A program made the position numbers and the translations under genes. Below are positions 28-24,823 of a stretch of DNA of 33,781 nucleotides, piece by piece. This DNA comes from a virus. The number at the start of each line of letters is the position of its first letter. Within the stretch, counting starts at the first letter, position 1. Under the pieces are notes generated by a model. That model saw nothing but the letters and a program-made list of their open reading frames with translations, did no database searches and had not been told where the DNA came from. The stretch is from positions 1-33,781 of the IMG/VR virus record IMGVR_UViG_3300027861_000107, one strand, 5' to 3'.

Positions 28-354
28 TTATTCTCTTTCTGGATGTTCTGTTGGCAGTACCTTTTCGATGCCCATGGTGTTAAGGACACGATTTTGAACT
101 ATAAGACGACGATTGGTGTTAACTACGTAAAAAACAGTCTTGCTGAATGTTTGTCGAACAATTCGAGCTTTCTTCGTTCCGCCTATGTAAACCTCGTCGT
201 CAACATTATAGTCACTACCATAATAGAACACGAGACCAGACACAAAGTTCTCAATTGCACTCTTAAAGAACAATGCGCCAGCACCACCGATAAACCACCA
301 AGTGTATTGGCCCATCATGGTTTCTAACATTGTTTGAATGACTACAGGGTCCAT
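28..354 (-). CDS. Miniature MscS-like mechanosensitive channel protein (pore helix plus beta domain only)
   Basis: The 108-residue protein has one hydrophobic segment (about residues 17-46, with WWFIGGAGALFF and ENFVSGLVFYY) followed by a beta-rich domain with VDDEVYIGG and LIVQN. This order and spacing match the pore-lining third helix and following beta domain of MscS channels, where a Gly/Ala-rich helix, a conserved N..aG, an (E/D)xV.(L/I)GG turn and a (I/V)(V/P)N motif occur in the same register. TM1 and TM2 and the large C-terminal alpha/beta cage are absent, so it is about one third of a canonical MscS. The start is supported by AGGAG just upstream. It lies 12 bases downstream of the coiled-coil membrane protein and is probably co-transcribed. 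The MscS relation is my reading of the sequence. A role in lysis, osmotic control or membrane signalling is inference only. Confidence 0.6.
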   Translation of the reverse strand: MDPVVIQTMLETMMGQYTWWFIGGAGALFFKSAIENFVSGLVFYYGSDYNVDDEVYIGGTKKARIVRQTFSKTVFYVVNTNRRLIVQNRVLNTMGIEKVLPTEHPERE

Positions 355-366
355 AAATATCTCCTA

Positions 367-786
367 TTAAGGAACAGCAGGTGCTTGTATTCCTAGTTTC
401 ATAAGAAGGTAAGCAGCTAAAATTACCCAAATAATCTGGATAGCAAAGGTGAAAATTTTGTTCCAGCGATCCTGACTTGTATTAGTGCTGCCTTCAACTA
501 AAGCAAGCCTTTTATCCAACTGCACAAGCTCTAGTTTCACTTCCTTTTGACATTCATCAAGTCTAGCTGACAGCATACCAGTACCTCCATCCTTAGATTC
601 TAGGACTGCTATCTTCTGCATAACCTCTTGATGGACCTTGGCTATCTCTGTCAATCTCTCATCAAGATCATCTTGCTTATCTCTAATAGCTTTGACTCTC
701 TCATCTATCCGAGTGCTTAAATCAAATAACTTCTGTATGTTCTCTGATGTTTGAGAGAGGATTTGTACTGAAATATCGTCTGCCAT
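367..786 (-). CDS. Coiled-coil protein with C-terminal membrane anchor (XhlA-like layout)
   Basis: The 139-residue protein begins MADDISVQ. Residues 10-62 and 73-98 are charged heptad-like helices (LSTRIDERVKAIRDKQDDL, VQLDKRLALVE), and residues 110-132 are a strongly hydrophobic segment (IFTFAIQIIWVILAAYLL) followed by a seven-residue tail. An N-terminal coiled coil with a C-terminal membrane span is the layout of the XhlA haemolysin/holin-associated family, though this is longer than the usual 70-90 residues. I chose the start at 786 because AAGGTG (793-798 on the other strand) lies six bases upstream; an in-frame extension to 921 has no such site and would overlap the divergent gene. It probably sits on the cytoplasmic face of the inner membrane. 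A lysis role is plausible but unproven. Confidence 0.6.
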   Translation of the reverse strand: MADDISVQILSQTSENIQKLFDLSTRIDERVKAIRDKQDDLDERLTEIAKVHQEVMQKIAVLESKDGGTGMLSARLDECQKEVKLELVQLDKRLALVEGSTNTSQDRWNKIFTFAIQIIWVILAAYLLMKLGIQAPAVP

Positions 787-829: not shown

Positions 830-1345
830 ATGAGTGAAAACAAAGAAGAATCTGAAGTCAAAACAGATACCGTGCCAGAGTTGGTTGATGAATTCGAGGA
901 TCTCGATGTCGAAGACCTCATACCAACTATGAACGTAAATGATATGCCTGAAGGACAATCACAAGAAGCTCCACCATGTATTATCGAAGATGAACAAGTA
1001 GTTGGTCTCTATGATGAAATACTTGATAACTGTAGAAAAGACAGAGAGTCAGCCGATGAAGTTTTGGCCAACTTCATTGAAATGGTAATGAATGATGGCG
1101 ATGCCTCTTCTGCCAGCAAAGAAGCAATTGTAAATCTCTTAAAGATTAAATCAGACACATCTGACAAGATGTCAAAAATTGCCGACTTAATGACTCGAAT
1201 GAAGTTAAAGGAAAAAGACACGTTCCCTAGATATCTTGCAGCACAACAGAACAACAAAATAGTAATAGAAAGCAGCAAAAGGGACATGCTTAAATCAATC
1301 GGTAAATTGACTGCGAGGAGTAAAAATGACAAATCGGATAAATGA
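830..1345 (+). CDS. Acidic helical phage protein, function unknown (possibly small-terminase-like)
   Basis: The 171-residue protein has a strongly acidic, probably disordered first 50 residues and a helical remainder (about 62-160) with a basic C-terminus (KLTARSKNDKSDK). The order (acidic leader, helix pair with a Y.e....r segment, a central helix ending in K.....D....S.I..L, basic tail) loosely recalls the T4 small terminase gp16, but I see no diagnostic motif, so I do not name it. Its last 20 bases overlap the next gene, implying coupled translation. The ATG at 830 is the first in frame after the divergent gap and lacks a well-spaced ribosome binding site. Confidence 0.75.
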   Translation: MSENKEESEVKTDTVPELVDEFEDLDVEDLIPTMNVNDMPEGQSQEAPPCIIEDEQVVGLYDEILDNCRKDRESADEVLANFIEMVMNDGDASSASKEAIVNLLKIKSDTSDKMSKIADLMTRMKLKEKDTFPRYLAAQQNNKIVIESSKRDMLKSIGKLTARSKNDKSDK

Positions 1346-2606
1346 AAATGAGTGGTTGGTTGAATTTGATATTCCCCCAGCAGGTGGTCAACCTGATATG
1401 AGTGCTGGTGGTCCACCTATGTCACAACCGGGTGGCCCTGATGATCCCATGGGACAACAAGACCCAAATCAAATGACTGTCGATCAACAGCCAGTAGAAG
1501 ATGAAGTTGCAGATGATCCTCAATATCCTGAAATGCCGGAAGAGAATGAAGACGATGATTTTGAAGTATGGAAAGTCAAGTTCGTAAAAGAATCAATCAA
1601 AGGCGAACCAAACAAACTCATCGACATGCTTCTTCAAGTGAGAGATCGTGAGCTTGATCCTTATCCCAAGAAGTTTGTTGAAGACAACATGGACATCAAC
1701 CAGCTTCGACAAAACTCAAATGTCTTTCAGGCATCAATGGAAATCAGAAAGCTCATAAAGAAAGATTTCGACAGAACCAATCCTGCGACATCAGTGATGA
1801 ACCATGTCACAGCAGTTCTTGATCAAAATCCCATGCTTAATGAAATCTACATCAAGCTTACCGGACTAGGTGGAGGAAAGAACGATCAACATAGAAAATT
1901 CTTTGCAGCTTTAATCGGTGCCGTTCAATTAGGAAGCGGTGGACAAAACGAAGACTTGGTGTTTGAAGAATCTGATTATTCAATTCGAATGTCAACTCGC
2001 TTTGCATCCAAGTGGGGAGATGTAAATCTTGGAAACTGGTTCTTAAAAGAAGATGATCCAGATCGTTTCTTGAAAGATGCGGAGCTAGAACGTCTGGATG
2101 GAGGAAGTCCAGAAGAGCGTGATGTTCTTCGACGACGAGTGGTAGTTGAATCTATTGCTTCTCAATTCATGGAACGTGCCTTTGCCATCAATGTTGTAGG
2201 TCCAGATGGAACGATTTATCACCTTGGTTGGGATTTAGGAAACTCGTTGAAATCTGCTTTCCTTGATGGGAAGCTAGTTGTTCGAACTAGAGACAATGAC
2301 AACAAAGAATCGTTTATTGATGAAGATGGCTCAATCATCTCTGTGCCTAACATGGATATCTATTATGTCAAGGAAAGCCAGAGCATGAGTAGTGCCGATT
2401 CAATGGAACTTGAAGAGATAGAATTCATGAGCCATAAAAACGGAAGTTTATATCTTACAGCCAATCTTGATTTGATTAAAGAAGCCGCTGTTTCTTTGCA
2501 GGGAATGATCTTTCGTGAGACATTGTTCCAAGGAAATCCAAGCGATTACTTGAGAGTTCAGAGATGTGTACCATCATCTGCTGAAATGTTAATGAGGCAA
2601 TGTTAA
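1326..2606 (+). CDS. Unknown phage protein with disordered Pro/Gly/Asp-rich N-terminus
   Basis: The 426-residue protein has a low-complexity first 80 residues rich in P, G, Q, M, D and E (for example GGPPMSQPGGPDDPMGQQ), which looks disordered. A folded alpha/beta region of about 340 residues follows (for example KWGDVNLGNWFLKEDDPDRF near 230-250 and YHLGWDLGNSLKSAFLDGKL near 300). It has no signal peptide or membrane segment. The start at 1326 has GAGGAG at 1315-1320, and the gene overlaps the previous one by 20 bases and abuts the next without a gap. I do not recognise the family. The position ahead of the tail module suggests a virion or assembly role, which is inference. Confidence 0.8.
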   Translation: MTNRINENEWLVEFDIPPAGGQPDMSAGGPPMSQPGGPDDPMGQQDPNQMTVDQQPVEDEVADDPQYPEMPEENEDDDFEVWKVKFVKESIKGEPNKLIDMLLQVRDRELDPYPKKFVEDNMDINQLRQNSNVFQASMEIRKLIKKDFDRTNPATSVMNHVTAVLDQNPMLNEIYIKLTGLGGGKNDQHRKFFAALIGAVQLGSGGQNEDLVFEESDYSIRMSTRFASKWGDVNLGNWFLKEDDPDRFLKDAELERLDGGSPEERDVLRRRVVVESIASQFMERAFAINVVGPDGTIYHLGWDLGNSLKSAFLDGKLVVRTRDNDNKESFIDEDGSIISVPNMDIYYVKESQSMSSADSMELEEIEFMSHKNGSLYLTANLDLIKEAAVSLQGMIFRETLFQGNPSDYLRVQRCVPSSAEMLMRQC

Positions 2607-2975
2607 ATGAGATTCAAGAAATACATGGAATACACTGGAGCACCGCCTGCACCAACAGGAGGAGCAGCACCTCCTGCGCCGGGAAGCGGTCCAATTGGTG
2701 GAGCACAAGGAGCACAGCAACCGGGTCAACAGCAACCGGGACAGCAACCGGGTCAACAGCAACCGGGTCAGATTCAAGTAACTCCTGAAATGGAAGGAGA
2801 AGATTGGTACAAAGCCATCAATGGTTCAAACATGACACCAGAACAGAAACAACAACAAATACAAGCCATGATGTATTTCAATCAAAGCCAACAAATCCAA
2901 AATCCAATTAAAGCATTTGGGAAACAGGTATTAGACAAAAGCATGGGCCATTCGGTCGGTTTAGGAGTAGTATAA
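2607..2975 (+). CDS. Small Pro/Gln-rich protein, unknown
   Basis: The 122-residue protein has three zones: a basic start (MRFKKYMEYTG), a disordered Ala/Pro/Gly tract leading into PGQQ-type repeats (about residues 12-55), and a helical Gln/Met-rich tail (MTPEQKQQQIQAMMYFNQSQ, about 76-95). Such composition fits a linker or scaffold-like virion protein, but no family is recognised. It begins directly after the previous stop, and its stop overlaps the next start (TAATG), so its expression is probably tied to both neighbours. Confidence 0.7.
   Translation: MRFKKYMEYTGAPPAPTGGAAPPAPGSGPIGGAQGAQQPGQQQPGQQPGQQQPGQIQVTPEMEGEDWYKAINGSNMTPEQKQQQIQAMMYFNQSQQIQNPIKAFGKQVLDKSMGHSVGLGVV
2715..2771 (+). 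repeat. Short tandem repeat encoding QQPGQ units
   Basis: Units based on CAGCAACCGGGTCAA occur back to back at 2715-2729, 2730-2741 (a 12-base shortened unit), 2742-2756 and 2757-2771. Every unit length is a multiple of three, so gain or loss of a unit keeps the gene in frame. Confidence 0.9.
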
Positions 2976-3487
2976 TGAAAAATAAATCATTTGGAGACTT
3001 CGTTGATAAGAAACAACGAGAAGGTGTCAGACAATTGACCCTCTTAAAGAAGCTTCTGGAAGAGGGAGGTTTGAAGGTCGAGAATTTCTTAGACACAGAT
3101 GATAGAGACGATCCTTACATCTTTTGCTTTATGCCAACTAGAAATGGCAGTTTCGATGGAATAAGAATATATAAAATTGGAGAGAGCATCGCTTTCCGAA
3201 TCCAAAAAGAGAACCAAACACATCCTTACGGTTCTGCATATCCACTTCCTATCGAAGATATGTTTTACGATTTTCTTAGCGACGAAGATGACGTAGACCA
3301 AAAGAAAGCCGGTAAAAAAGTCATTGATTACGTTGTTAAAGAAGTAAGAAGATTCTTCGACAAAAGTGTAGAAGCTGAAAGAGAAGAAAGAGATCAAGCT
3401 ATCGATCAAGAAAAAGACAACGGAGGAAATCCCCTTGTAAGAACAACAGGGACAGATTATTCATCCCTAGTGTACAACAAGGCGTAA
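2975..3487 (+). CDS. Unknown phage protein, acidic/basic helical C-terminus
   Basis: The 170-residue protein has a basic start (MKNKSFGDFVDKKQREGVRQ) and a central alpha/beta part with FCFMPTRNGSFDGIRIYKIG and ESIAFRIQKEN (about residues 50-80). A highly charged helix (VVKEVRRFFDKSVEAEREER, about 120-140) and a short tail follow. I see no enzyme motif or membrane segment. It begins with a TAATG overlap and closes the first group of rightward genes before the stem-loop and HNH gene. Function not recognised. Confidence 0.75.
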   Translation: MKNKSFGDFVDKKQREGVRQLTLLKKLLEEGGLKVENFLDTDDRDDPYIFCFMPTRNGSFDGIRIYKIGESIAFRIQKENQTHPYGSAYPLPIEDMFYDFLSDEDDVDQKKAGKKVIDYVVKEVRRFFDKSVEAEREERDQAIDQEKDNGGNPLVRTTGTDYSSLVYNKA

Positions 3488-3496
3488 AGTCCTCAA

Positions 3497-3530
3497 ATTA
3501 GAGTGTGTTTTGAATACTTCACACTCTAAT
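3497..3530 (+). promoter_or_regulatory. Perfect 11-bp stem-loop before the HNH gene
   Basis: ATTAGAGTGTG (3497-3507) and its exact reverse complement CACACTCTAAT (3520-3530) flank a 12-base loop. It lies between the stop of the preceding gene and the HNH ribosome binding site (3537-3541). No run of T follows, so it is not a classical intrinsic terminator. It could be an RNA-processing or stability hairpin, limit read-through into the HNH gene, or relate to insertion of that gene. Confidence 0.7.
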
Positions 3531-3532
3531 AA

Positions 3533-4072
3533 GTGTGGAGGAAATTATGCCATACAAAAATGCAGAAGACAGAAGAGTATCACAAGAACAAAGAAAGAAT
3601 TAAGGCAAACGAAAATAAGCCTAGCAGAAAAAAGCAAAGAAAGAAATATCTCGAACAGTATTCAAAGGATAACAAAGATTTAGTTTCGGAAACTAAATCA
3701 AAATGCTATCAGAAGAAAAAAGAAGAATACAAAGAGAGGATATACAAAAGAATTAGGGAACACACAAAGTTGGTTTCTGAAATTAAGGTTCATTATGGTT
3801 GCATGAATGAAAATTGTAAGTGGAGCGAAGACACATATGATCCTGTAATTTTGGACTTCCATCATTGCAACGCAGAACAAAAGAATGCCAAAGTTTCACA
3901 AATGTTTTGTCGTTCCAAACATATAATTGCCGAAGAGATAAACAAATGTGTTGTGTTTTGCGCAAACTGTCATCGATTATTTCACAAAGATAATTATTCG
4001 TTGACAAACCGCTGTAACGTCAACGAGGAATTATTGTGGGAAACGGACTATTCGAGGACTGGAATCCTTTAG
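3533..4072 (+). CDS. HNH endonuclease, probably a homing endonuclease with an N-terminal frameshift
   Basis: The open frame encodes a zinc-binding HNH domain: C90 and C95, LDFHH (107-111), and CANCHRLFH (143-151) with a second cysteine pair. A long Lys/Glu-rich DNA-binding-like helix (residues 12-85) precedes it. This is the pattern of free-standing phage HNH homing endonucleases. The GTG at 3533 has no ribosome binding site. GGAGG at 3537-3541 instead points to ATG 3547, in another frame, which reads MPYKNAEDRR and stops at 3601. MPYK(D/N) is a typical start for this family, so I infer an indel near 3568-3580, a +1 shift by ribosomes, or a sequencing error. An in-frame ATG at 3560 is an alternative start. 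The last 37 bases overlap the next gene. Confidence 0.75.
   Translation: MWRKLCHTKMQKTEEYHKNKERIKANENKPSRKKQRKKYLEQYSKDNKDLVSETKSKCYQKKKEEYKERIYKRIREHTKLVSEIKVHYGCMNENCKWSEDTYDPVILDFHHCNAEQKNAKVSQMFCRSKHIIAEEINKCVVFCANCHRLFHKDNYSLTNRCNVNEELLWETDYSRTGIL
3537..3549 (+). promoter_or_regulatory. Ribosome binding site and ATG pointing to the other HNH frame
   Basis: GGAGG (3537-3541) is followed five bases later by ATG (3547-3549). This start opens an 18-codon frame ending at TAA 3601-3603, while the HNH domain lies in the neighbouring frame. The placement is the best evidence that the HNH gene once began here. Confidence 0.65.
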
Positions 4073-4728
4073 AGAGGATTCCTTCAAACCAACATGGGCT
4101 AAGCACAAAGAAAATCAAACGTGGTTCTCTAGTGTCATTTAGTTATCCCGAAAGTTTCGCAACAATACCGAATGTAATTCATGATCCATATCCAATGGTG
4201 ATACTTACAGATATTTGGCCTCAATACGTCCGAGGTCTTAACTTGCATTATTTAACATTGCCCTATATTAAGAAAATCTTAGGGACATATGGAGGTCAAA
4301 CTGGTTTTAGTTACTTCCAGATACGTCCAGACAAGTATATGGCAAAAGCCTTTAGAATGTATGTAAGAAAAGGTGTACGTCAACCAAAATTATTAGATGT
4401 TAACTTCCTTAATACTGTATTAGAATCGGCTCGGTCATTCGCACCGGGAGAGCTAGAGCAAATCAGAGCAGAAATACAAAGACAAATACAACAAAGACTT
4501 CAAGTAAAAGCAAATGAACTTACATCTTACGAAGAATGGCGAGGGTCTATGACAGATTCTCAGAAGAGACAATTGAGAGGTAAAGGTCTTCAGTCACATG
4601 AAGCACTCAAAGGAGGAGTGGACAGAGACCTTATCTATCCGAATGAAGGAGCAGCAGGATTACATCCGTCACAAATGCCACCACAACAAGGAGAAGGTGG
4701 GGCGTTTAGTACAGACACAAATCTATAA
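4036..4728 (+). CDS. Probable virion structural protein of unknown role, GTG start
   Basis: The 230-residue protein has a compact beta-rich first half with VILTDIWPQYVRGLNLHYLT (about residues 55-74) and FSYFQIRPDKYMAKAFRMYV (about 92-112). A long Gln/Arg/Glu helix (LEQIRAEIQRQIQQRLQVKA, about 140-160) and a disordered Gly/Gln/Pro tail follow. I have an impression of similar proteins in large phages but cannot name the function. The GTG start is supported by GAGGA at 4025-4029, six bases upstream, inside the end of the HNH gene. The next gene, the tape measure, starts 17 bases after its stop, which favours a head-tail or tail-assembly role. Confidence 0.75.
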   Translation: MGNGLFEDWNPLERIPSNQHGLSTKKIKRGSLVSFSYPESFATIPNVIHDPYPMVILTDIWPQYVRGLNLHYLTLPYIKKILGTYGGQTGFSYFQIRPDKYMAKAFRMYVRKGVRQPKLLDVNFLNTVLESARSFAPGELEQIRAEIQRQIQQRLQVKANELTSYEEWRGSMTDSQKRQLRGKGLQSHEALKGGVDRDLIYPNEGAAGLHPSQMPPQQGEGGAFSTDTNL

Positions 4729-4745: not shown

Positions 4746-7700
4746 GTGGCAGATATTGGAAGCAACAGAGTTGTTGACCTAAGCAATGCAACCATTGCGG
4801 GATTAGCGTCTGCATTAAAAGGGCCAGTGCAAGTTTCTTACACTGCCAATGTCCCTGTTGCGGAAGGCAAATTAGACAATCTTTACACTGCTACAAATAA
4901 TGTTGCATCGAGAATTGATGCAAGTGCCAGAGCCGATGCAGACTCCGCTTCCATATTCGCCAACGCCGTAACAGAAATGAAATCTGCCATCTCTGGGAGA
5001 AAAGGATCAGATGAAAATTCTGGTTCAGAAAATGGACTTCTTAGAGATGTAGCAAATTCCGCTAGAGGATTATTCAACGCTTCGAGAAACTGTGGATTAC
5101 AAGTAGATGTCTGTAACATAAGTGCCGGTGCAATTAAAGACATAGCCAATGCTGTGAAAGCATCCAAAGGAGCGGCTTCTGTTGTCACCAAGAAAATTGG
5201 TTCTACCACAAGAGTAAGAAGACCCACCAAGCAATTAGGAAAGGCGCTAGATCATTCAATTGATGATTTGGGAGATCGTCTTATGGCGTCTGGCGGCGGT
5301 AGAGGCGGTGGTGGTAGCGGTGGTGGTAGAGGCGGTGATGCTCCTATGGGGCCGGGTGGTGCCAAAGCTGCTAAAAGCGTTAAAAACCTAGCAGGAGTTA
5401 TAGAAACTCTTGGAGGCATTGTTGCCGGAATTGGAAAAGCAGCAAGCTCAGCATTTGATCTCAATTTATGGAACATGCTTCCAAATATAAAAGCCGCTAA
5501 TGAGTTTCGTGAAAATATAAGAGCGCTTTCTTTTCAAACACTAGGTTATGTTCAAAGCAACGGGGAACTTGCAAGCAGTTACATGCACGTCACAGCACAG
5601 GCACAGGCATCAGGTGAAACATTAGAACAATTTCAAATTCACATGTTGAAATCCGCAGAGCGTGGATTAAAAAGATTATCAAAATCAGAGCGTGCAGCTT
5701 TTGCAGCAAGAAACAAAACTCTTAAAGGTGACAAGTTAGCTGCAAAAATAAGACAGATGGAACAAAAAAGAACCATCAGCGTAACTTCTACTGCGCTTCA
5801 TACTGCGAACATGTTGAAAATGGAAGTCGGAGCAACAAACGATCTATTCACTTCATGGCACATGCAACTCGGAATGAGTGCAAATCAGATGTCTCAAATC
5901 GGCAGGCACATGCAAGCTGTTGCTAGAAGTTCTGGAGTAACAGGAGCAGAGTTACAAAATGCCATGAAGTCTGCTGACAAATTGGCAAAACTTTTAAGAA
6001 GTGCCGGTGGATTCACTACTGGTGCAGCCAAAAATGTTACAGAACTTTCTACGTTGTATCAAAAATATGGCGTAAGCGACAAAATGGCTGCTCAATTAGA
6101 AGCTCGTACAAGTTTGGCTGCGTTCCAAGCTGCCGGTGTAGAAATACAAGGACAACTTTTGCGTATAGCTGCCTCTGGTGGCGGTGCCGCTTTGCAAGAG
6201 AAAGTTAGATTGGGCGGAAGTCTTGATTCAAGAGCAGATCAAAAGGCCATGGCTAAGGGTCGAGATGTTGAAATGCGAAAATACTTGTCAGGATACGAAG
6301 AATTATTGAAAGCCAAAGGTGCTATTAAACCGGGCGGATCAATAGAAGACCTTGATCTAACACAAATGACAGAAGTGTTAAGGTCAGCTTTGCCAAACGC
6401 TGAATACCAACTCCTCAACTACCGCATGGAACAACTAATGGGAGGCGGATTAGGAGACCTTGAATCAACATTTAAGGCTGAAGCGGAGTTGATGCAAACA
6501 ACTCAAAAAAATATGACTGATCTTGGAGCAGAAATAACTAAAAACACTAAATTGTTTGGAGCAAATTCTGACCAAGTAAAAGAAGCGCAAAGAAGATTAC
6601 AAGCGATGGAAACAGATTCATTGCAATCCATGTTTGAAGAAGTTGCCGATGCTGCAAGAGGAGTTGAAGGCGGATTTAACAATATGGGGGCTGATGCCAA
6701 AGCAACTCTGTTAGCCAGTTTAACTGATATGCACGGAGCAGATGTTGCTCAAAAATTCATGGCCGATCTTGGAGGAGGAGCAACAAGTCTTATCAAAGGT
6801 CTTGAAACACAAGCACAAGGAGTAGGAGTAAGCTTAGATAAAGTTATTGGAGAATCTGGATTTGAAGGAGGCACAGCAAAACTTCAAAAAATGCTTGCCA
6901 GTGGCAATCAAGATCAAATGGCTGCTGCCATGAGTGTTCTTAAAACTGCCGGTGCAGATATTAGCCTAAGAGAAAAAGTGGGGGCTGATCCTGTAACTGA
7001 TGCCAGAGATAAGATTAGAAGAGCACACAATAAGGGCCAAGACATAACACAAACTGGGTTATTGTATGTTGTAGATTGGCTTGGAACATGGGGTGTTCTT
7101 GGGATGGCTGCTTTAGGTGGTCTTGGAGCAATTTTCCTCGGTGTTGGAGCAATGATAGGCGGTGGTCTTCTTAAAGGCGGAATGCTTGGTTCATTATTTG
7201 GAAAAGGTGGAACTGTAGCCAAGATGTTTGGCAAAGGTGGAACAGCCGCCAAGATGTTTGGCAAAGGTGGAACAGCCGCCAAGATGTTTGGCAAAGGTGG
7301 AACAGCCGCTCGTGCCGCTGGTGCAGCAAACCCATTTGCTTCTATGACTGGACACATGGGTCGTGCCGCTGGCGGAACAGGAAGAGGAGCAGCAGCCGCA
7401 GGCCGAAGTAAGCTTTTCGGCAAAGGCGGAACTCTACCTAAGTGGCTCGGCGGTGGCGGAAAAGCCGCTCGACTAGCAGCCGGTCCCGGTTCCACACTCG
7501 CTACTCAAGGTGGAGCAAAAGTAGCAAGTAAAGGTCTTGGTGGACTACTCGGAAAAATTGCCGCCCCACTTCAACTTGCCATCGGTGGCATAACTGGAGC
7601 CTTGGAAGCTAAAGAAGCTGGACGAACCACGGCAGAAGGAACCTTACTTGGCGTTCTTACTGGTGATGCTAAAACCGGAAGCATGTTTAGTGGAATGCTT

Positions 7701-10700
7701 GGCATAGAAAAAGGCGGCACAGGAGATAAAGCTCTTGGTGTTGTTGGAGCGGGTGTTTATGGGGGAATGGCCGGTGCGGGAATCGGTGTTCTGTTAGCAC
7801 CATTTACTGCGGGAATTTCTATTCCAGTAGCAGCAGCCATTGGTGGAATCATTGGTGCCATAACAGAAGTCGTAAAGATATTCACAGAAGGAACAGATAT
7901 CTTAGACAAATACATCATCAAGCCTTTGATGATTCTTGCAGGCCCATTGCTCGCAAACATCATGGGTCCATTCAAGATGATCAAAGCTTTGTTCACAGGC
8001 GACTTCACAATGTTTGTAGATGGATTGACAGACATGTTCTTATCCATCCCCAAGATGATTGGCAAAGGATTGATGTATGTCGTTCAAGACATATTTGGAT
8101 TTGATTTGTCTGGTGTACTAGGAGAGCTTTCAGCAGCATGGGATGGATTTGTTGGATACTTCAGCGAAGCTTGGACAGCTTTCACAGATGCTTTAGGGTT
8201 TGATATTTCTGGCGTACTAGATGGAATAAGCGCTGGCTTTGAGTGGCTTTACAATGCAGTCAAACCAGTTGCGGAAGTGATTTATGGGGCTCTTGTAATT
8301 GGATTCGAGGCTTTAACAGCAGTTCTTAAATGGGCAGGCCCTAAAGTTGTATGGTTGGCGGCAGTGCTTGGAGGATTCATAAAGGGTCTTTGGCAAGGAT
8401 TCATGATGATCATGAAGCCGATCATTTTCGTATTCAAAATTGTCTGGAAAGTCGTATCAGGAATTGTCAAAGGAATTGTTGGAATATTCACATGGCTATA
8501 TGACGTGCTAATTGGAAACTCCATCATACCAGACCTTATCTTTGGAATCATTAAGTTCTTCTTAATGTTGCCATTCAAGATTATGGGAGCATTGTGGAAC
8601 TTGCTAAAGAAATTACCGGGTCTTATATGGGAAGGACTAAAATTCCTTGGTGGACTGGCAATGAAACTGATCCCCATGATTTGGGATTTCCTCAAGCAAC
8701 TTCCGGGAATGGCATGGGATATAATAAAGAAAATTCCGGGTCTTCTATGGAAGGGAATCAAAGGCATCGGCGGTCTTCTATGGAAAGGCATCAAAGGTAT
8801 TGGCGGCATGATCTGGGACGGTCTATCGACTCTTCCGGGATTGCTTCTTGATGGAATGAAAGGGGCTCTTCTTGCAGCTTGGAACTGGTTCAAAGGAACA
8901 GTTGAAGGAGCAGCAGATTACGTCACGGGTGCCGACATTGTAAAGAACATCGCAGATCAAAACGCATCAATAGAAAGAGGAGAAGATACCCACTATGGAA
9001 ACATCGACAAAAGACAGGCCAAGATAAAAGACCCAACAGAAGCTTTGAAGCAGGCAGAGAAAGATGCCGAGATGAATCAGAAAAAGCTCACTGGTCAGGA
9101 AAGACATCTTAAAGGTTTGATCAAAGATGGTGGCAGAGGAGGAAGAAGCTGGGGAAGTGATGCAGTCATACCAGACTGGACGGGATTGGATTCTGCAAAA
9201 AATGCAAATGTAGAATCAGTCAAGGGTCAAAAGAGTCTCATTAAAAAAGTCAGGGGAAGACAAGAAGCATTAGATGCAAAAGTTAGAACATTAAGAAGAC
9301 AACAATTAGAACACTTCCTACAATCCGCTGATCCAAAATCTCCAATGGCAATCAAAGCTAAAAAAGCTTTAGATACTATGGATAAAGCTAAAGCAATTAA
9401 AGGAGGAGCCTTCTCCAGCGGGACGGCGCTAAGGTTTGCCTTACAAGAACAAGCAGGAGCACATTATGAAGACTTCAGCTATGACTTAAATAAATCCAAC
9501 GCAGCCAAAGAAAAGAAATCATCCGAAGAATCTGCCAAGAAAAAGATAAGTGTTAGTGGACAAGGAGCTTTTGCGAAAGGCCAAGGAAAAGAAGCTGGAG
9601 CGAAAGGCCAAGGAAAAGAAGCTGGAGCGGAAGCTCTATCAAAAACCATGAAAGAGCATGGACCTGAAAAGGGAACAGCAGACCAAGCAAACAAAGCCAT
9701 GGTCACTCCGGGAAGCATTTACACCCACGACGCTCACTGCGAAGCAGTTCTCATTAAGATACTTGAAGCCTTGGGAGGAAGTCACACTCCTTCTAAAGCT
9801 GTCAATAGTATTGCAGAAGGAGGAGAAGGAGGAATTGGTGGAACTGGTGGTGGTGGATTTTTACAAAGAACTGCTAAATTCTTAGAATCTGGATTTGAAA
9901 GTTGGAAGCGTTTGAGCGGATTAACATCAAAAACAAAACAATCAACATCTAAAGAAACAACTCTTGATGTTGCAAGCGGAAAACCTTCAAAAAGTACAAA
10001 CATGATTTCAGTCATGGCTGTAATGATGGACCTAATGTTGTCTATGGCCAAAGATGTTAGAGCAATTAGAAATTCTGTAACATTAGTTGGAGTTGGAGCG
10101 TTCGACAAAAAGCAAGGTAAAGAAGCTGTAACTTCTGTTGTAGATCAACTTTCTAAAGAAGTTGCAATAACCAGTGGCAGCATTGGTGCTAGTGCTGGTG
10201 CAAAAGCACCAGTACCTCCAAAGACGCCAGCACCTCCAAAGACGCCAGCACCAATGGCACCGAAGTCAAAACCGCCAATTGCGGCTGCTGCATCCGCTGC
10301 GTCTACAGATAAACAAAAGACAGAAGGGCCTATAACTGCAACTGCGGGAGAAGCAGGTGCGTTCGATAAGAAGCAAGGCAGAGAAGCTGGATCAGAAGCT
10401 CTATCAAGAACCATGAAAGAGCACGGCCCTGCAAAGGCAGCAGAAGAGCAAGCCAGTAAAGCAATGATGACTCATGATGTTTATTGTGAAGCTGTTCTCT
10501 TTAAGATACTTGAAGTTTTAGGTGACTGTTGTGCTCCCGGCAAAACAATATCTTCTATTGCCAATGTTACATCAACTGCAACTGGAGGAACTTCTTCTGT
10601 CTCCAATAACAGAACTGGTGATTCCTCTAGGCAAGACAAAACAAAAATTGCATTGAGTCGGATTGACTCTATTGGCAGCAACAGAGTTTCTACCGGAATT

Positions 10701-13000: not shown

Positions 13001-13561
13001 ATGAAAGCTACAAATAATGGAAGTTTGAATCCAATACCAAATTGTTATATTGACATACCAGTTGCAGGTACGGTTCATAGAATTTGTATGAATAATTTGC
13101 CGGATGTATCAGATACAAAATCTGCTATTTATAACAACGAAGGAATCATTGGAAGAGCATTTCCTTTATACACATATTCTCATTCTGGGGATAGACAAAT
13201 AAATGTACAAATACACTTTTTTGCTGTAGAGAGATCAGATGTAAATCAAAACATTCAAGATTTAAGAGCTATTCAAAGTGCTGTGTATCCAAGAGAGGGC
13301 ATTGGACGAACTCCTTATAGACCACCTCCAGTTTGTAAAATACAATGTGGAAACTTGCTTGTCGGAAACCCCGCACGATCTGCTCCACCAGAGGATCTTT
13401 GTGTAATTTTACAATCTTACAGTGTTAAGTTTCCAACGGAAGTGGCATTTGATTCAGAAACTATTACCCCTTATAGATTTGATGTAGAAACATCATGGCT
13501 TACTGCATATTCGGCTGAAGAACTTCCTTGGGCTAGAAGAATATACGAGACAGGGAGATAA
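13001..13561 (+). CDS. Baseplate tube-adapter/peripheral hub protein candidate (CIS-tube or gp48/54-type position)
   Basis: The 186-residue, all-beta-looking protein has FPLYTYSHSGDRQINVQIHF (about 55-74), a YPREG....Y.PPPVCKIQCG segment (about 97-118), and an ending typical of tail-tube-like domains in which a PP.v....G turn is followed by a strand and a final DVETSWLTAY strand. Proteins of this layout lie between tape measure and hub in contractile phages and injection systems and initiate or cap the tube. The family assignment rests on pattern and position, not on a decisive motif. It has AAGGAG before the ATG, and the next gene starts one base after its stop. Confidence 0.55.
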   Translation: MKATNNGSLNPIPNCYIDIPVAGTVHRICMNNLPDVSDTKSAIYNNEGIIGRAFPLYTYSHSGDRQINVQIHFFAVERSDVNQNIQDLRAIQSAVYPREGIGRTPYRPPPVCKIQCGNLLVGNPARSAPPEDLCVILQSYSVKFPTEVAFDSETITPYRFDVETSWLTAYSAEELPWARRIYETGR

Positions 13562-23812: not shown

Positions 23813-24823
23813 ATGCTTAATGATAAACAAGAACAAATTTTTGTAGGGTCTATGTTGGGAGATGGTTGTATAAGCAAAAATTTTTCAAATGAAGGATTAT
23901 GTAGATTTGAAAAAGGACAATCAAAGAAGGATTTTGTTGGCGAAGATAAATTGTCATATATGAATTGGATGAAGCAAGAGTTTGATGAATTTAGCACTTC
24001 GGTAATTGAGAGTTCTATAAAATCATCAGGAATAGTTAAAGAAATTAGCGGTGATAAAACTTATGACAGATATAACTTTTATACAAAAAGTCTTAAATTG
24101 TGGGAAATACTCGAAGCCGAATGGTACGTCCTACGCACCGATCACAAATGGTATAAGAGAACCAAAATAGTCCCACGAGACATCAAGTTAACTCCGCTCA
24201 CACTTTGTGTATGGCACATGGATGATGGATCAGTAAATCCAAAAGATGCCAATATTGAGTTGAACACACAAGGGTTTTCAGTTGAGGAAGTGGACTTTCT
24301 CATAGAAAGGATTAACAAAGACCTCAGTATCAAGAGCCACAAAAAGAAAGGCCGCAAGAAAAGCCAATACAAAATTTACATTGGCAGAGATCATTACTTT
24401 GATTTCATGGAAATGATCAAGCCGCATATTGAGTGGGACTGCTTTAAGTACAAGGTTGACACAGAAACTTACGACAAGAAACCCCACCAAGGAGAAACAC
24501 ATTCTTTGTCAAAACTTACAAAAAAGAATATCAAACAAATCTTCAAGCTGCGAGACAAAGGATGGTTGCAGAAGAAGATTGCCAACAAACTCGGAATATC
24601 ACAAGCCAATGTATCTGTGATACTTTCTGGAGATCGTTGGTCCCATCTTGGAACAAAGAGGGATGTTATTAGAAAACCTCGTCTCACAAAAGAAATGAAG
24701 TCCCAAATTGTTCTGTTAAAGGAGGATGGGGTTTTTCAAAAAGCTATTGCTGAAAGACTAAATATCAATCAGAGCACAGTATCTCGTGTTCTGAAGGAGA
24801 ACCATTGCCACGTATTGAACTAA
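23813..24823 (+). CDS. LAGLIDADG homing endonuclease with two C-terminal helix-turn-helix segments
   Basis: The 336-residue protein carries two LAGLIDADG-type helices: FVGSMLGDGCI (10-20) and LCVWHMDDGSV (about 130-141). Each has the acidic residue expected for metal-dependent cleavage, so it is probably a single-chain two-motif enzyme. After about residue 230 come two similar HTH units, WLQKKIANKLGISQANVSVI and VFQKAIAERLNINQSTVSRV, resembling resolvase/Trp-repressor-type DNA readers and probably extending target recognition. It is free-standing between two structural genes with its own promoter and AAGGAG site (23801-23806). Its final 19 bases overlap the next gene. It would cut an unoccupied allele and spread by repair; the target site is not identifiable here. 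Confidence 0.88.
   Translation: MLNDKQEQIFVGSMLGDGCISKNFSNEGLCRFEKGQSKKDFVGEDKLSYMNWMKQEFDEFSTSVIESSIKSSGIVKEISGDKTYDRYNFYTKSLKLWEILEAEWYVLRTDHKWYKRTKIVPRDIKLTPLTLCVWHMDDGSVNPKDANIELNTQGFSVEEVDFLIERINKDLSIKSHKKKGRKKSQYKIYIGRDHYFDFMEMIKPHIEWDCFKYKVDTETYDKKPHQGETHSLSKLTKKNIKQIFKLRDKGWLQKKIANKLGISQANVSVILSGDRWSHLGTKRDVIRKPRLTKEMKSQIVLLKEDGVFQKAIAERLNINQSTVSRVLKENHCHVLN
24794..24807 (+). promoter_or_regulatory. Ribosome binding site inside the endonuclease gene that sets a TTG start
   Basis: AAGGAG (24794-24799) is followed after five bases by TTG (24805-24807). It lies within the codons for the last residues of the LAGLIDADG protein, so the downstream structural gene now depends on sequence contributed by the mobile gene. 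Confidence 0.7.

Follow-up and report, generated by a model that had tools for sequence, protein, structure and literature searches.

Near one end of a 33,781-nucleotide stretch of viral DNA (positions 1 to 33,781 of the IMG/VR record IMGVR_UViG_3300027861_000107; hereafter, the window) lies a small gene whose product resembles part of the mechanosensitive channel MscS. The locus raises two questions: whether this protein (here called mini-MscS) descends from MscS by loss of most of the channel, and, if it does, what a large phage would use the remainder for. The original prediction placed the gene at positions 28–354, and these coordinates proved exact; the coding strand, which it left unstated, is the minus strand. 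The features of the locus are the following.

28–354, minus strand: mini-MscS gene, a complete open reading frame (ORF) of 108 codons (108 amino acids)
52–213, minus strand: MscS beta domain, residues 48–101 (from PF00924 matches, structure and family alignment)
220–264, minus strand: TM3b-like amphipathic segment, residues 31–45, aligned to MscS Gln112–Met126 (hhalign register)
265–306, minus strand: TM3a-like helix with an uncharged hydrophobic core, residues 17–30 (from the model helix at residues 3–45, hydropathy and column composition)
361–365, minus strand: Shine–Dalgarno sequence AGGAG, 6 bases ahead of the mini-MscS ATG and directly behind the stop codon (367–369) of the upstream gene
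367–786, minus strand: upstream gene of 139 codons (139 amino acids), with a coiled coil, a C-terminal membrane anchor and faint XhlA-type similarity
830–4728, plus strand: divergent gene block, mostly kept next to the mini-MscS pair in four relatives

The mini-MscS start codon (ATG) occupies positions 354–352 and the stop codon positions 30–28. Only 12 bases separate the end of the upstream gene from the mini-MscS start, and the two genes probably form one transcription unit. A ribosome-binding site, homologs and purifying selection establish that 28–354 is a real gene.

Successive scans of IMG/VR for relatives returned 2, 28, 230 and 241 loci; at least 241 viral loci therefore carry a relative, on contigs of up to 380 kb, and by computation mini-MscS is conserved across many large uncultivated phages. 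Of the 107 ORFs that we extracted, 56 are distinct. Most have 99–135 residues, the few longer ones likely reflecting the choice of an upstream start, and identity to the window protein is 35–73 per cent. The family is under strong purifying selection, with dN/dS values of 0.02–0.23 where the ratio is estimable, and many pairs combine few protein changes with saturated, or almost saturated, synonymous sites. A tblastn search with six different family members as queries found no mini-MscS in 50,697 GenBank phage records, members gave no consistent family in PHROGs, and a first scan of bacterial and archaeal genomes found none. A second scan of such genomes yielded one member, on a contig assigned to a Marinimicrobia metagenome-assembled genome; because its neighbours are endolysin and tail genes, this is probably a phage contig. 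One viral contig (L032) encodes two paralogs, one per subfamily, at 7293–7640 and 8001–8330, 360 bases apart. Some subgroups (L018, L022, L080 and relatives) have an AT-rich region 5′ of the start codon and, unlike the window group, lack a Shine–Dalgarno sequence, which may reflect different hosts.

Taken by itself, the window protein is a borderline case, since it scores an E-value of 0.057 (14 bits) against the Pfam MscS profile, below the curated cut-off; the homology is significant because of the family evidence. The profile search called for by the original prediction produced the expected match: Pfam MS_channel_2nd (PF00924) recognizes 19 of 22 members (best E-value 4.8e-7); L001 and L002 exceed the curated cut-off, and 17 of 32 viral records lie above it. 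Searches of PDB sequences with phmmer and profiles matched almost only YnaI and MscS, each weakly. An hhalign comparison with E. coli MscS kept the expected register with a P-value of 0.0011 and a probability, by the program's own estimate, of only 21 per cent, and identity to host-type MscS is only 10–20 per cent across the aligned region. The motifs that had drawn attention to the gene are all present (N36-x-x-S39-G40, VDDEVYIGG from V51 to G59, and V86-Q-N88).

An AlphaFold model built from 47 sequences (mean pLDDT 83, pTM 0.55) consists of a helix at residues 3–45 followed by five strands. VIA-align superimposes this model on MSL10 and MscS with Z-scores of 8–9.7 over about 102 residues (MscS residues 85–188 align with model residues 3–108) and on Trypanosoma cruzi MscS with a Z-score of 7.7. 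The leading PDB matches of an earlier, weaker model (pLDDT 70) in Foldseek were all MscS, MSL, YnaI or MscK. In the model, in VIA-align and in hhalign alike, the TM3-like helix is joined to the beta domain in the MscS register. Taken without the helix, the beta domain is similar to SH3/Tudor-type domains too, CarD among them (Z-score of about 7). A Z-score near 8 is not decisive on its own, but such SH3-like domains (CarD, Tudor, myosin) match the barrel only, whereas the MscS match takes in both helix and domain and scores above them. A fold unrelated to the MscS beta domain was to count against the homology originally proposed; the predicted fold matched MscS, and the idea survived.

The proposed truncation, in which pore helix and beta domain remain while TM1–TM2 and the cage are gone, was likewise borne out by Pfam, the AlphaFold model, Foldseek and VIA-align. 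The TM1–TM2 sensor paddle is absent, with only a short stretch ahead of the helix, and so is the cage (the C-terminal alpha/beta domain and barrel), as the ORF stops right after the beta domain. In 32 related records, which are partial contigs, the small genes are the sole PF00924 matches; hence we found no longer phage MscS that could supply the lost parts. Mini-MscS is one of the smallest MscS-like proteins found. Fold, homology and truncation are thus established by computation, and we are highly confident that mini-MscS derives from the MscS superfamily and has retained just the pore helix (TM3) and the beta domain. The accompanying premise that canonical MscS proteins need TM1–TM2 and the cage was too strong, as T. 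cruzi MscS (TcMscS), which lacks TM1 and cage alike, is gated by tension (PMC12334622), and the microsporidian MscS2 assembles into heptamers of unknown function with no more than TM3 and the beta domain (PMC11262690).

Conservation differs between the two retained parts. Thirteen residues are invariant in 47 members (D48, D52, D53, V55, G59, R64, I65, R67, T73, F75, N88, E97 and K98), all of them in the beta domain; K72 is near-invariant, and the signatures RIxR, KTxF and EK, invariant in the family, are not found in E. coli MscS. The helix drifts and is more poorly conserved. All members have Lys, Arg or Gln at position 31 (Lys31 in the window copy), and N36 and G40 align with N117 and G121 of MscS TM3b, G40 being largely kept and N36 present in about half of the members. 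The Gly/Ala-rich pore helix of the original prediction exists in the window copy (FIGGAGALFF) but is not a family trait: across the 47 members only position 24, and in part position 23, is small, the helix is otherwise rich in Leu, Ile, Phe and Val, and most members lack the Gly/Ala-packed TM3a pore lining of E. coli-type MscS. Such packing characterizes E. coli MscS and is not a general feature of the MscS superfamily. Whether the helix spans the membrane is uncertain, because its uncharged core of about 14 residues (17–30) is short for a membrane span and the hydropathy of the window copy is low (a mean over residues 13–30 of 0.84, against 1.64 for the family).

The genes around mini-MscS vary among lineages. 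The product of the upstream gene in the window matches phrog_937 (1.4e-5 and 1.1e-6) and scores below the cut-off for Pfam XhlA, and many coiled-coil families score alike. This coiled-coil/anchor gene adjoins mini-MscS in L029, L030, L033 and L046; it was rejected as an obligate partner, as the mini-MscS of L031 (71 per cent identical) sits elsewhere without it. Within the divergent block, the gene at 4036–4728 (plus strand) resembles a T4-type DNA end protector. Farther along the window, baseplate and tail genes at 13001–33170 are syntenic with those of the 595-kb uncultured phage LR756511.1 (23–44 per cent identical), the named relative nearest to the window in its virion genes, in which a search run without a positive control found no mini-MscS. 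A gene at 23813–24823, inside the tail block, has homing endonuclease-like (LAGLIDADG, phrog_11023 at 1.8e-14) and helix-turn-helix matches. In the freshwater group the neighbours are an ankyrin/cyclase gene and a coiled-coil gene with lipoprotein-like features. In L080, the gene before mini-MscS (6924–7889) starts like a lipoprotein and has a coiled coil and a membrane segment, recalling single-molecule spanins, and the gene after it (8360–10138, also in related freshwater loci) combines ankyrin repeats with an adenylate/guanylate cyclase domain (Pfam 7.4e-5, just above the cut-off); the proximity of cyclic-nucleotide signalling to an MscS-like gene could be functional. Marine groups have PAP2 or amidase genes as neighbours; a PAP2-type phosphatase gene directly precedes mini-MscS in several marine loci (7178–8014 in L043, and relatives), and a GroEL-like chaperonin gene, recognized by eye, lies about 1.4 kb before it on the 147-kb contig L048 (5013–6596). 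Given this variation, mini-MscS seems to be portable cargo that has a function of its own.

As for that function, we tentatively prefer, at slightly less than even confidence, a cage-less ring that assembles by itself in the host inner membrane and adjusts how leaky that membrane is during infection. The beta domains would pack side by side into a ring, presumably heptameric as in MscS, MscS2 and TcMscS, and the short helices would enter the membrane from its cytoplasmic face. The result would be a cage-less pore of low selectivity, opening on membrane stretch or thinning. It would likely serve a large phage, during its long infection, as an osmotic valve that sets turgor or the leakiness of the inner membrane and either delays bursting or tunes the time of lysis. 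The ring and pore are plausible because TcMscS gates without TM1 and cage and MscS2 heptamerizes with TM3 and the beta domain only. Ring assembly itself seems to us reasonably likely, and conduction as a valve possible but doubtful. We think it unlikely that large phages independently evolved a single-helix, cage-less MscS-type channel, among the smallest functional ones, that is gated by tension or thinning and controls turgor or lysis timing. Judged from the sequences, a helix that is poorly conserved, lacks the MscS Gly/Ala packing in most members and may not span the membrane counts against a pore, and so do the E. coli MscS variants lacking the alpha/beta domain and the barrel, both parts of the cage, which PMC11262690 cites as not inserted into membranes.

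The varied neighbours bear most directly on the alternative that mini-MscS is a lysis protein, acting as holin, pinholin or lysis-timing partner to permeabilize the inner membrane when infection ends. The original prediction proposed looking for the same mini-protein next to lysis genes in other phages, and such neighbours do occur in some lineages: mini-MscS lies directly upstream of a glycosyl hydrolase 108 endolysin in L189 and about 40 bases after an amidase in L069, an amidase is at most 1–2 kb away in G019, G028, G031, G032 and G035, a lysis gene is close in the L020/L050 block, and in the L018/L022 lineage mini-MscS is divergent from a Phage_holin_10 gene on the opposite strand, near a lysozyme. 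The partner in the window lineage, a coiled-coil/anchor protein weakly like XhlA, fits too. The proximity does not extend to six other phages (G007, G008, G009, G010, G011 and G014), in which the amidase is about 15–26 kb away, and most of the records with a nearby amidase have a single gene block in common, hence a single ancestor. Moreover, G020 and G030 carry a separate holin, and the window has no endolysin nearby, although the contig ends 28 bases past the mini-MscS gene. A search of the mini-MscS records for lysozyme (PF00959) came back nearly empty; a similar outcome for glycosyl hydrolase 108 is uninformative, as no control gave a match. With lysis genes near in some lineages and far in others, a general holin role is unsupported, and we regard the lysis explanation as improbable.

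The concentration of conservation in the beta domain, including the invariant charged residues R64, R67, E97 and K98 and the near-invariant K72, would suit a protein that conducts nothing, in which the beta domain is a binding ring or adaptor and the drifting helix a mere tether; the SH3/Tudor-like appearance of the isolated domain points the same way. Yet the first-ranking, MscS-family matches run through helix and beta domain together, and N36 in part and G40 largely are conserved as in MscS TM3b, which leaves this reading improbable as well. The retained beta domain, which lines the ring in MscS, and the preserved register would also allow mini-MscS to co-assemble with host MscS and shut or open that channel, as a poison or modulator, and the absence of a longer partner from the phage agrees with this. 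Mixed rings are argued against by the divergence from host-type MscS, to which mini-MscS is only 10–20 per cent identical over the aligned region, and by RIxR, KTxF and EK, foreign to the E. coli protein; we judge such co-assembly quite improbable. A chance resemblance, in which an unrelated small membrane protein happens to carry an SH3-like barrel, would account for the borderline Pfam score of the single window sequence but not for the 17 records above the curated cut-off or for the fold matches, and this already disfavoured explanation is very improbable.

If the cage-less ring conducts, a single helix plus a small domain would make up a minimal mechanosensitive channel; mini-MscS would then reveal what tension sensing requires of MscS, and would constitute an undescribed phage route to act on the osmotic state of the host. 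If it does not conduct, viruses would have put a beta-domain ring to another use. The question can be tested directly, given a family that is small, widespread and readily expressed.

In the open literature that we searched, we found no description of a phage MscS family, which is weak evidence of absence; MscL and mechanosensitive channels in viruses receive a general mention in one viral-metagenome paper (PMC13288924). A search of the GenBank phage records for full-length MscS, with an E. coli MscS query whose top match is annotated as MscS, gave 17 records: several are plainly pieces of bacterial chromosomes, and most of the others are unannotated fragments. BFVD contains two unnamed viral proteins, A0A516LVN0 (104 amino acids) and A0A516MLU7 (129 amino acids), that are similar in length and match the model structurally over nearly their full length; on that basis they probably belong to the family, members of which are thus probably already in sequence databases. 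The MscS proteins of giant viruses (Aureococcus anophagefferens virus and Sylvanvirus), named as mechanosensitive channels, also match in fold, but they have 261 and 651 residues and come from eukaryotic viruses. E. coli MscS and YnaI (PF00924) share a homologous TM3 and beta domain with mini-MscS, yet have 286 residues or more and possess both the TM1–TM2 region and the alpha/beta-plus-barrel cage that mini-MscS lacks. TcMscS, like mini-MscS, has no cage, no TM1 and a thin membrane part, with TM3 and the beta domain making up the whole pore, but it keeps an N helix and TM2 and is a proven mechanosensitive channel (PMC12334622). A close counterpart in domain content and size is MscS2 of Nematocida displodere (PMC11262690), which has a TM3-like helix and a beta domain, no cage and no TM1, and measures 73–95 amino acids in some microsporidian species. 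MscS2 is a eukaryotic parasite gene of bacterial origin whose heptamer has been seen by cryo-EM, whereas mini-MscS has its own invariant signature (RIxR, KTxF, EK) and a viral gene context; in architecture, mini-MscS fits the minimal MscS2 type.
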